Assembly (NCBI GenBank): GCA_030594645.1
Contig: JAUVEU010000003.1
Coordinates: 1-64,000, forward strand
Length of the DNA stretch: 64,000 bases
Source: Candidatus Aegiribacteria sp.
Lineage (GTDB): Bacteria; Fermentibacterota; Fermentibacteria; Fermentibacterales; JCC-6
Direction of reading: 5' to 3'
Shown here: positions 1 to 63,986 of the stretch, piece by piece
Layout: every line of letters starts with the position of its first letter
Numbering within the stretch: position 1 is the stretch's first letter
The notes under the pieces: model-generated
Told to the model about the DNA's origin: nothing
The model's input: the letters and a program-made list of their open reading frames with translations, nothing else
Database searches by the model: none
Position numbers and translations under genes: made by a program

Positions 1-25
1 AATGAGTAATCTCAGACTGGCGAGA
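1..25. repeat. Left copy of 25-bp direct repeat flanking the lipoprotein gene
   Basis: Positions 1-25 match positions 1024-1048 at 24 of 25 bases, in the same orientation. The right copy lies inside the 3' part of the minus-strand gene at 982-1494. Read on the minus strand, the left copy encodes the same short peptide (SLRLLI core). It therefore looks like a remnant or second copy of the end of that gene, and the lipoprotein gene at 55-978 sits between the two copies. Confidence 0.75.
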
Positions 26-54
26 TAACATGAGAGGGTAGAGGAGAAGAGAAA

Positions 55-978
55 ATGACTCGATTAATCAGTATTCTATTGATTCCATTCATTGTATTTA
101 CCGCCTGTGTTGATACAGGCCAGAGCGTAACGCAGCCCGTAACAGGGCACAGTTCAGGCTGGCACGATGGCGGCAGTGCTGAGGAAATCTGTCATGAATA
201 TATGGAGCTGCTGGGAAACGCTCAGACTATGCACTACGGTAAATACAATGAGTACACTGACAACATTGAGGATCTTCAGGAGTTTCTTCAAATTCCGGTT
301 GAATCAATTTACTGTCCTGTTAATGGCGAATACCTGTTTTCAGGTGATATCAGTGAAGAATATTACATAGAATGTCCCTCAGGCGCAGAGATGTCTCATG
401 GTCATATATGGAATGGATATACAAGCTGGCCTCCCGATCCTTCCGAGCATACCGAAATCTGTCATGGACAACTGGTGTCTCTGGGAGTCGCCCAGTCTAT
501 GTACTACGGTATGTACAATGAATATGCTGACAACATTGAAGATCTTCAGCAGTTCTTTTCCATTCCTGTTGATTCCATACATTGTCCTGTGAACGGAGAG
601 TATACCTTTTCAGTCGACGATGAGAATTATTGCATAGCTTGTCCGTCAAACGTGATACCATCGCACGGTTATATCCAGAACGGAGTTGTCAGCTGGCCTC
701 CCGATCCTTCCAATTATCTCGAATATTGTCAGAGCAATATGATGAGTCTCCTGACAGCGTGTTCGATGTATTATGGAATATACAATCGGTTTCCGGAAAA
801 ACTGTGTGAACTCGGGATTTCTGGAGTAATGGATAACTGGGACCTTGAATGTCCGGCCTGCTGCCTTCTTTACATTTACGAAACCGATATATCCGGACAG
901 ACATTCACAATCCATTGTCCGTTGCCAACTGATCCAAACCACGGAAGTATCGTAGATGGTATTCCCAGCTGGGAATAG
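55..978 (+). CDS. Lipoprotein with three tandem pilin-like repeats
   Basis: This 307-residue protein begins with a signal peptide and a lipobox (FTAC, Cys18), so it should be a lipid-anchored envelope protein. The rest is three repeats, about residues 44-133, 134-222 and 223-307. Each has a helix-like start (E-x-C, then a YYG-x-YN core), then CPVNGEY or an equivalent, then a C-x-x-x-x-x-x-HG ending, and repeats 1 and 2 close with SWPPDP. This order resembles the soluble C-terminal part of type IV pilins and pseudopilins (CP..G.Y followed by C..HG), but the hydrophobic prepilin helix is absent. Repeats 1 and 2 are nearly identical at the DNA level and repeat 3 has diverged. The start has a GAGGAG ribosome site. 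The function is unknown; the pilin relationship is inferred from motif order. Confidence 0.75.
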   Translation: MTRLISILLIPFIVFTACVDTGQSVTQPVTGHSSGWHDGGSAEEICHEYMELLGNAQTMHYGKYNEYTDNIEDLQEFLQIPVESIYCPVNGEYLFSGDISEEYYIECPSGAEMSHGHIWNGYTSWPPDPSEHTEICHGQLVSLGVAQSMYYGMYNEYADNIEDLQQFFSIPVDSIHCPVNGEYTFSVDDENYCIACPSNVIPSHGYIQNGVVSWPPDPSNYLEYCQSNMMSLLTACSMYYGIYNRFPEKLCELGISGVMDNWDLECPACCLLYIYETDISGQTFTIHCPLPTDPNHGSIVDGIPSWE

Positions 979-981
979 AGG

Positions 982-1494
982 TTAATCCTGCGACAGCGGA
1001 GGGGGAGTCCTGAAGTTGCCCTGAATGAGTAATCTCAGACTGCCGAGAAAATAAGCGAATCTGAATCTGTCCGGTCTGTTCAGAAGTTCAGGGAAATGCT
1101 CCATCTTCCTTGGTTCCAGATCAGCGATTTCATATCGGTAGTTCAGCCTGCCCGGTCTCCGGATATCAAACGAGTAAAGAAATCCTTTAATTGATCCCGA
1201 GTGGTCTTCAGACGGTTCAACGATTATGAGATAATCACATTCAGCTTTTGCCATTCTGTCGAATGAGATTCCTCTATGATTTGAGGGAAGGACTATTGCC
1301 TTTCTGCCGTTACGGAAAAGGAGGCTGTACCTTCTTTCAGTATCCGGCTTTTCATCTGTTCTCCAGCATGGAGTTCTCATTCTCAGAAACCATCTTCTAG
1401 CGACAGCTTCGGCAAAAAGCGCGTCAAAACAATCTGATCTACGGGCTTCCCTCTGGAGCTTTTTTCGGAGTTTCCGAGAAATGGCGATTTTCAT
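982..1494 (-). CDS. Hypothetical protein, 170 aa
   Basis: I do not recognise this protein. It is soluble, with no signal peptide or membrane segment, and has a basic N-terminus rich in Arg and Lys. It is convergent with the lipoprotein gene and ends 3 bp from that gene's stop. Its last 25 codons contain the right copy of the direct repeat that also occurs at positions 1-25. The ribosome site before the ATG is weak. The length of the open frame and its clean position between neighbours support a real gene, but the start is uncertain. Confidence 0.55.
   Translation of the reverse strand: MKIAISRKLRKKLQREARRSDCFDALFAEAVARRWFLRMRTPCWRTDEKPDTERRYSLLFRNGRKAIVLPSNHRGISFDRMAKAECDYLIIVEPSEDHSGSIKGFLYSFDIRRPGRLNYRYEIADLEPRKMEHFPELLNRPDRFRFAYFLGSLRLLIQGNFRTPPPLSQD
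1024..1048. repeat. Right copy of 25-bp direct repeat
   Basis: This is the partner of the repeat at 1-25, with one mismatch (C versus G at base 20 of the repeat). It falls within the coding sequence of the minus-strand hypothetical gene. Confidence 0.75.
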
Positions 1495-62777: not shown

Positions 62778-63986
62778 ATGGAAATACCTTCCATGCAGGA
62801 AATGCTGGAGGCCGGAATTCACTTCGGTCACCAGAAAAGTCGATGGAACCCGAAAATGCGGAATTACATCTTCATGGCTCGAAACGGTATTCATATCATT
62901 GATCTCAAAAAATCCAGAACTCTTCTGGAGGATGCCTCCAATCTGATCGCTAAAACTGTCGCGTCCGGAAAAAGTGTTCTTTTCGTTGCCACAAAGAAGC
63001 AGGGAAGGGAATGCTTGAAGGAACACGCCATAAGATGCGGTCAGTACTACGTTACTGAAAGATGGATGGGGGGCATGCTCACTAATTTCAAGACCATTTC
63101 TAAAGGCATAGAAACCTTGGTTGAACTTGAAAAGGCTGAGAAGGATGGGTTTCCTGCAAGCATGACGAAAAAGGAGATTCTTCAGAAAAGAAGGAAAAGG
63201 GAAAAACTGGAGAAGGATCTTACAGGTATTCGTCACATGAAAAAGCTGCCTGGAGCAGTCGTGGTTGTAGATATAAAGAAGGAGCAGATTGCTGTTCGTG
63301 AAGCAAGGAAACTTAATATTCCCTGTATAGGAATAGTTGATACGAATTGTGATCCGACCGAAGTTGATTATCCGATTCCGGGAAACGATGATGCAATCAA
63401 ATCTATTTCATTGATTATCGGTACTCTGGCTGATCACGTCATTCTTGGTGCTGAAGGGGCTGCTCCTGATACTTCAACGGAGAAACCGATTCCGACGGAT
63501 GATAGTACAGGTGCTGTTGAAGCTGAAGAAAAAAAGACAGTTTCTGCAACACCGGAGAAGAAGACAGCTGCCGCTAAACCGGAGAAGAAGACAGCTGCCG
63601 CCAAACCGGAGAAAAAGACGGTTGCCGCCAAACCGGAGAAAAAGACGGTTGCCGCCAAACCGGAGAAAAAGACGGTTGGCGCCAAACCGGAGAAAAAGAC
63701 GGTTGCCGCTAAACCGGAGAAGAAGACAGCTGCCGCCAAACCGGAGAAGAAAACAGCTGCCGCTAAACCGGAGAAGAAGACGGTCGCCGCTAAACCGGAG
63801 AAGAAAACAACTGCTGCCAAATCTGAGAAGACAACAGCAGATACACCTGCAAAGAAAACTACGGCCAGAAAGACTGAAAAGAAGGCTGCCCCAGCAGAAA
63901 CTGCTGGAGATATCGCAAAGGATACAGCTTCAGTCAGCGAAAAGCCGAAAAATGCTCAGGAAGAGGGAAAGGATTCGGGTGAATAA
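62778..63986 (+). CDS. rpsB: Ribosomal protein uS2 with long Lys/Ala-rich repeat tail
   Basis: The first 230 residues are normal uS2: MEIPSMQEMLEAGIHFGHQ, TERWMGGMLTNFKTI, and PIPGNDDAIKSI at the 30S-binding end. Then comes an extra 170-residue tail (about 232-402). It starts with an acidic linker (TDDSTGAVEAEEKK), followed by about ten copies of a nine-residue unit, KPEKKTVAA, with substitutions at the A/V positions. The tail is strongly basic and disordered, like AlgP or histone H1. Similar tails on uS2 occur in some bacteria but this one is long. AAAGGAT lies before the ATG. Confidence 0.93.
   Translation: MEIPSMQEMLEAGIHFGHQKSRWNPKMRNYIFMARNGIHIIDLKKSRTLLEDASNLIAKTVASGKSVLFVATKKQGRECLKEHAIRCGQYYVTERWMGGMLTNFKTISKGIETLVELEKAEKDGFPASMTKKEILQKRRKREKLEKDLTGIRHMKKLPGAVVVVDIKKEQIAVREARKLNIPCIGIVDTNCDPTEVDYPIPGNDDAIKSISLIIGTLADHVILGAEGAAPDTSTEKPIPTDDSTGAVEAEEKKTVSATPEKKTAAAKPEKKTAAAKPEKKTVAAKPEKKTVAAKPEKKTVGAKPEKKTVAAKPEKKTAAAKPEKKTAAAKPEKKTVAAKPEKKTTAAKSEKTTADTPAKKTTARKTEKKAAPAETAGDIAKDTASVSEKPKNAQEEGKDSGE
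63549..63827. repeat. rpsB: 27-bp tandem repeats coding for the uS2 tail
   Basis: About ten in-frame units of 27 bp encode KPEKKT plus three small residues. Units differ mainly at third positions and at the Ala/Val codon (GCT or GTT). The number may vary between strains through slippage. They are within the rpsB gene, not a CRISPR array. Confidence 0.9.

Follow-up and report, generated by a model that had tools for sequence, protein, structure and literature searches.

Pilin head domains in tandem on a lipoprotein-type signal in Candidatus Aegiribacteria and its phylum

According to a review of type 4 pilins (PMC10191384), prepilins invariably carry a type III signal peptide, distinct from the lipoprotein signal. 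The same review describes modular pilins, PilB and PilC of S. sanguinis, in which a foreign domain is grafted on a pilin that keeps its signal, and PilW/PilF and PilP, envelope lipoproteins of type IV pili. In Geobacter sulfurreducens the pilin is the PilA-N/PilA-C pair, a head together with a headless helix (PMC11046646). We describe here a gene of Candidatus Aegiribacteria, a lineage of the phylum Fermentibacterota placed in the FCB group by the NCBI taxonomy, whose product carries pilin heads behind a lipoprotein-type signal. As in the Geobacter split pilin (PMC11046646), a pilin head is made as its own protein without the hydrophobic helix alpha1-N; here, in contrast, the heads are in tandem on a putative lipid anchor and the genome holds complete pilins. 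This is not a split of the Geobacter type, as each of the two true pilins (L003 and L004) has its own head, and both sit on other contigs. The modular pilins (PMC10191384) show the same cut-and-paste use of a pilin domain, but in reverse: in our case the pilin head is grafted on what would be a lipoprotein anchor, and the protein has no type III signal.

The DNA analysed (the window) is a stretch of 64,000 nucleotides at the left end of contig C6, in a 3.07-Mb genome of 158 contigs that is 94% complete. Its features are listed in Table 1. The lipoprotein gene has an AGGAG-like site immediately 5′ of its ORF. The ORF that follows on the opposite strand is separate from the lipoprotein and marks the syntenic place. 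At the far end of the window, ORF 62778-63986 (+) resembles ribosomal protein S2 by eye, with a long C-terminal tail of AKPEKKT-type repeats.

Table 1. Features at the left end of the window (positions in the 64,000-nt stretch)
Feature	Position	Strand	Basis
Copy of 1024-1058; probably what flanks the 3′ end of an upstream tandem gene copy that the contig end cuts off	1..35		86% over 35 nt
Signal peptide and lipobox; putative lipidation site Cys18 (codon 106-108)	55..108	+	lipobox-like motif after hydrophobic stretch
Tandem headless-pilin lipoprotein gene, 307 aa	55..978	+	single ORF; whole-length orthologues in G017 and G014
Repeat 1, pilin head with three cysteines and lacking the fourth	181..438	+	profile match, alignment
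Repeat 2, pilin head domain, 65% aa identity to repeat 1	451..708	+	profile match, codon alignment
Repeat 3, pilin head closest to the genome's own pilin; modelled repeat	712..975	+	47% to L003, model, fold matches
Conserved neighbour, cluster c6 (7 loci), followed by gcvT 1625-2722	982..1494	-	without Pfam match
Flank repeat, copy 2, lying 3′ of the gene and within ORF 982-1494 (-)	1024..1058		repeat finder

The protein starts with MTRLISILLIPFIVFTAC, where a lipobox-like motif, FIVFTA followed by the cysteine at position 18, is succeeded by a short linker and the three repeats. The cysteine stands at +1 behind a hydrophobic stretch, as in bacterial lipoproteins; at -3 the motif has Phe, versus the usual Leu. 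With a loose pattern, a lipobox-like motif was found in all 34 N-termini of the tandem family examined, a hand-picked set that leaves out L041, L045, L062, L067 and the second gene of L047, which have no readable N-terminus. No type III signal peptide with a GFTLIE-type site was seen in the window protein, and it gave no N_methyl match in Pfam up to E 10. The protein is thus of lipoprotein signal type, and would be lipidated at Cys18 and held on a membrane. By the +2 Asp sorting rule known from E. coli, this would probably be the outer membrane, because there is no Asp at +2.

Profile matches place the repeats at residues 43-126, 133-215 and 223-307; these matches only locate the repeats and are no proof of homology, because the repeats themselves are in the profile. 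The order C..CP..Y..C..HG..G..SW is common to the repeats and to the two true pilins of the genome, and three cysteines, the HG pair and the final W are invariant across the three repeats and both pilins. In the alignment with these pilins, no hydrophobic alpha1-N helix precedes any repeat. The preliminary description had proposed a lipoprotein with a lipobox and three headless pilin-like repeats, each with the cysteine-rich order of pseudopilins and none with an N-terminal hydrophobic helix, and on all these points it agrees with what we find.

Homology to pilins is given by L003 (contig C140 of the same genome, G000), a pilin of 118 aa that starts with MKKGFTLIELMIVVVIIGIL and matches PF07963 above its cut-off. 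It is 47% identical to residues 224-307 of the window protein (E 4.7e-10). L003 belongs to a type IVa pilus locus: further along its contig come a sigma-54 regulator, a histidine kinase, a PilC-like protein, PilT and two PilB-like ATPases. In this contig PilT scores above its own cut-off; the PilC-like protein is at 478.9 bits, under a cut-off of 700, and the PilB-like ATPases are at 635 and 669 bits for a cut-off of 675.65. The second pilin, L004, is over the T2SSG cut-off.

As for the fold, a structure prediction and fold search of one repeat had been proposed as a check, and it returned a pilin or pseudopilin fold across the whole of repeat 3, the only repeat on which the fold evidence bears. 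The AlphaFold2 model of this repeat, built from a 6-row alignment (window and L034 repeats only), has a mean pLDDT of 87.4 and a pTM of 0.78, with four strands and three helices, of which one is long and two are short; a full-length model (2 rows) had a pLDDT of 30.7 and was left unused. In Foldseek the best PDB matches were pilins, at weak scores (best E 0.088, none at or below 0.001). VIA-align gave a Z of 9.4 with the T2SS major pseudopilin of Vibrio vulnificus (3gn9_C, 79 aligned, 1.9 Å) and of 9.3 with PulG (1t92_A, 80 aligned, 2.5 Å). The first 28 rows held nothing but type IV pilins or pseudopilins, with a fall to Z 3.2 in row 29, a fold absent from such match lists not being thereby excluded. 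Residue 1 of the model aligns to residue 31 of most matched pilin chains, and therefore the repeat corresponds to a pilin minus alpha1-N. The lipoprotein is like type IVa PilA and the GspG proteins of T2SS (PulG, EpsG) in its alpha-beta head, its cysteines, HG and final W; it differs from them by having a lipobox instead of a type III signal peptide, no alpha1-N, and two or three heads in tandem.

The window protein passes no Pfam or NCBIfam cut-off, and therefore such proteins are easily missed. With the Pfam family Pilin_GH (PF16734) it scores 17.1 bits, below the curated cut-off of 28.9; repeat 3 alone has no Pfam match up to E 0.1, and a sequence search of solved structures gave nothing useful (best E 1.3).

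Repeats 1 and 2 had been described as almost identical in DNA, the mark of a recent internal duplication. They agree at 76% over 160 nt in the repeat finder, and the codon alignment gives 70% DNA identity, 65% aa identity and a dS of 0.99 over 88 codons; repeat 3 is 31-32% identical to either of them in protein. Neither statement is upheld, as the dS between the repeats exceeds the dS between species, 0.48 with G017 and 0.67 with G014. Moreover, repeat 1 clusters with repeat 1 of G017 and G014 (SH-aLRT 96), and therefore the duplication is older than these species. The whole-length orthologues in these two genomes are 78% (G017) and 76% (G014) identical to the 307-aa protein, with dN of 0.14 and 0.17, respectively, and a dN/dS of about 0.25-0.3 in both comparisons. 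We conclude that the tandem pilin-head protein is conserved and under purifying selection.

Upstream of the window gene there is probably another whole copy in tandem. Contig C104 of the same genome ends within a paralogue, with 86% aa identity over residues 1-78 and 89% DNA identity over 234 nt. It carries the genes found to the left of the single copy in G014, and C6 carries those found to its right. Two neighbouring copies exist in G001, G021, G027, G029 and G031.

Tandem members in related genomes, which the preliminary description had suggested looking for, are present. Every one of the 42 genomes of the phylum in our dataset was searched, and by reading of loci the tandem lipoprotein was assigned to 31, pieces that are broken or cut by a contig end included. 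These are 16 of the 19 genomes in the window's genus (g1), 11 genomes in g3, g4 and g5, and 4 in g8 and g9. Among the 31, the gene is contig-cut in G002, G016 and G026, broken in G010 and G035, and has an in-frame TGA in G020 and G040. G024 has a one-repeat form. By locus reading, 10 of the 42 genomes have no tandem lipoprotein (G004, G005, G007, G019, G023, G025, G032, G034, G036 and G037); in G004 and G007 the contig begins inside gcvT, and the place expected for the gene is not assembled. The g1 gene has ABC-exporter, radical-SAM and reductase genes (by eye) on one side and, some ORFs away, gcvT on the other. The g5 locus is elsewhere, near a sigma-54 regulator and MRP-like ATPases.

The two TGA-containing copies, which are from different families (L057:5570-6265 (-) in G020 and L063:5096-5764 (+) in G040), are two-repeat genes with the TGA in the linker between the repeats. 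The second repeat is open after the TGA, and no usual start codon precedes its first cysteine. Either readthrough or decay would account for them.

A search of 385 genomes, with at most 5 first-look candidates scored per genome and matches kept at E 1e-12 or better, found no lipobox tandem in the 343 genomes outside the phylum; 7 of these genomes matched at E 1e-12, and the 7 stretches concerned were read. A separate search of the phylum of G042 covered 1 genome and is no evidence either way. In G327, outside the phylum, L128:4285-4959 (+) has a pilin-like hydrophobic N-terminal helix with seemingly two head-like domains, and lies close to an ORF that resembles a prepilin peptidase by eye.

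Pilin heads without the pilin helix also occur in other proteins of the phylum. Single-head proteins amount to 12 rows of class B and 4 rows of class C, with a lipobox-like motif in 10 and 4 of them, respectively. The class B family (L101, L103, L135, L156, L158, L159, L161-L165 and L170) spans several genera, with proteins of ~117-139 aa ending in a sequence like GHGSIxTGRRSW, and is found also in G005, which is without nearly all pilus-type ATPases; it is perhaps tied to a T2SS-like system instead. Lipoproteins of 568 aa in G009 (L099:909-2615 (+)) and G018 (L100:731-2437 (+)) have a pilin head as their last 80 residues, the large N-terminal part having no Pfam match (tested on L099). Finally, the single heads L107 and L106 have no lipobox and start with a hydrophobic N-terminal stretch. 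With several headless forms in one phylum, pilin heads therefore seem to have been re-anchored several times.

We then come to the link with the type IVa pilus. Among the genomes of the phylum, G005 (of the window's genus, 98% complete) has a single PF00437 match, versus 3-8 in the other 41. Its gcvT locus is intact and the gene is absent: the usual flanking genes of the lipoprotein are 4 bases apart (L123, 5037-5690 and 5694-6305). Some relatives have further ORFs between the two. No pilin-head match to the window protein was found in G005, pilins included; the genome retains a GspG-like pilin (L171) and a class B single head (L103). G005 is one clean joint absence of the lipoprotein and of the pilus ATPases, and a single case. 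Several PF00437 ATPases are present without the lipoprotein gene in G023, G025 and G037, and therefore the pilus does not need the lipoprotein. No pilus gene was seen beside the lipoprotein gene in the window or in the loci read, as far as the neighbours could be named.

Within each lineage, repeats and pilins are alike. Over helix alpha1-C, identity to g5 pilins is 0.50 for the last repeats of g5 and 0.32 for those of g1, identity to g1 pilins is 0.32 and 0.46, respectively, and g1 and g5 repeats have 0.30 to each other. Over the rest of the domain, g1 and g5 repeats are closer to each other (0.39) than last repeats are to pilins of their own genus (0.34-0.35). Pilins of g8 are no farther from the g1 repeats (0.48) than g1 pilins are, which places the shift on the g4/g5 side. 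The pilin majority switches between g1 and g4/g5 in 22 columns, and the last repeats mirror 17 of these switches, the other repeats 10; four of the 17 are one deletion, and the permutation p of ~0.0002 is not a count of independent events, because columns were treated as exchangeable over one clade split. Identity between repeats and own pilins is about half in the helix and about a third elsewhere, with a best value of 56%. For last repeats, helix identity is hardly higher within the same genome than within the same clade (0.48 vs 0.47 in g1, 0.57 vs 0.51 in g4/g5).

Three positions set the repeats of g1, g4 and g5 apart from type IVa pilins: Cys48, a fourth cysteine (71 of 77 repeats, 0 of 39 pilins), and Pro26 (70 of 77, 0 of 39) are gained, and Glu15 is lost (1 of 77, versus 36 of 39). 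In the three GspG-like rows, Pro26 is found in 3, Cys48 in 2 and Glu15 in 0; these traits are therefore not unique to the lipoproteins, and the resemblance extends beyond PilA. Another pattern is seen in the 10 repeats of g3, g8 and g9, with Cys48 in 5, Pro26 in 0 and Glu15 in 7.

Trees of this short domain unite g4/g5 repeats with g4/g5 pilins when made from helix columns (98.4) and again from all columns (99.8), and unite all last repeats when made from the other columns (94.8, not starred). AU tests reject no alternative (p 0.357, 0.471 and 0.605). The resemblance fits one old lipoprotein co-evolving with the pilin as well as separate origins, and the trees do not decide. The mosaic of helix and rest is not taken as proof of co-evolution, and recent gene conversion from pilA is unsupported at the protein level. 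In these comparisons, the GspG-like rows (L171, L173 and L174) were kept out of the pilin group for columns, trees and same-genome values, and in it for clade identity averages. In one set, copies of other loci (L034, L102, L106 and L108) and domain matches spanning fewer than 55 profile positions were dropped, and in the clade identity set domain matches spanning fewer than 50; row 3 of alignment A1 was ignored for want of homology along its length.

The reading we favour, with a probability of roughly one half, is that of a pilin mimic tethered by a lipid and working for the type IVa pilus of the same cell. After export the protein would receive its lipid at Cys18 and stay on a membrane, probably the outer one, where it would offer three pilin heads in a row, each starting where the hydrophobic alpha1-N of a pilin ends. 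Because the heads begin after alpha1-N, they can fold as a pilin head and should escape prepilin peptidase and the filament core; without alpha1-N, polymerisation into a filament is unlikely. The pilin-like surfaces would then meet the own type IVa pilus or its assembly machinery, and could for example hold, guide or cap filaments at the envelope. To our knowledge, no type IV filament is known with a fixed, membrane-held pilin mimic. PilW/PilF and PilP, which have TPR and beta folds, are not pilin heads; they would be alike, if the pilus-partner reading is true, as lipoproteins working for type IVa pili at the envelope. This reading is favoured by the pilin fold that starts from residue 31, by the 47% identity between repeat 3 and L003, whose gene has PilB-, PilT- and PilC-like neighbours, by the lipobox-like motif in 34 of 34 N-termini examined, by the retention of the gene in 31 of 42 genomes, by the joint absence in G005, and by the helix identities and mirrored switches that follow the own lineage's pilin. 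Against it stand the lack of adjoining pilus genes, the three genomes with ATPases and no lipoprotein (G023, G025 and G037), the joint absence seen only once, and the loss of Glu15 in g1, g4 and g5; the resemblance to the own pilin may reflect separate origins rather than contact. A wider proposal, offered tentatively, is that lipoprotein-signal pilins are phylum-wide and were re-anchored several times, the tandem form tracking the own major pilin as a working type IVa partner.

The cysteine-rich pilin head could instead be a repeat module of a surface or periplasmic lipoprotein with no tie to the pilus, repurposed as a scaffold for ligand binding or envelope structure. Such a use would suit the differences from type IVa pilins (Glu15 lost, Cys48 and Pro26 gained), the position of the gene away from pilus genes, and the heads on single-domain and 568-aa lipoproteins, one single-head form being kept in G005 without the pilus ATPases. 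We consider it rather unlikely, as the gene is absent together with the pilus in G005 and its changes are mirrored with those of the own pilin. It is unlikely, too, that the heads are displayed on the surface as a decoy for pilus-binding phages or as a dock for the pili of sister cells: heads without the polymerising helix on a lipid anchor, in two or three repeats and often in two genes side by side, with a likeness to the pilin of the own lineage, are what one could expect, but an identity to this pilin of about half in the helix and a third elsewhere is low for a decoy. In Neisseria, pilS loci are silent pilin cassettes that donate sequence. That the headless repeats, as tandem pilin coding units resembling the own lineage's pilin, would likewise donate sequence to pilA is disfavoured and highly improbable, since the best repeat-pilin identity is 56%, with no near-identical tracts at the protein level, identity within a genome is hardly above that within a clade, and the reading frame and signal peptide are kept with a dN/dS well below 1.

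A lipidated, headless or tandem pilin lipoprotein was not found described in open-access titles and abstracts, and absence there is not absence from print. In contrast to what the review states of prepilins (PMC10191384), pilin heads are found here on a lipoprotein-type signal, in tandem, across a phylum. If the protein serves the pilus, it would illustrate how a pilin-like surface can be fixed at the envelope, and these proteins would be natural constructs for the study of pilin contacts without polymerisation. If it does not, it would be a clear case of a filament subunit turned into the repeat scaffold of a lipoprotein.
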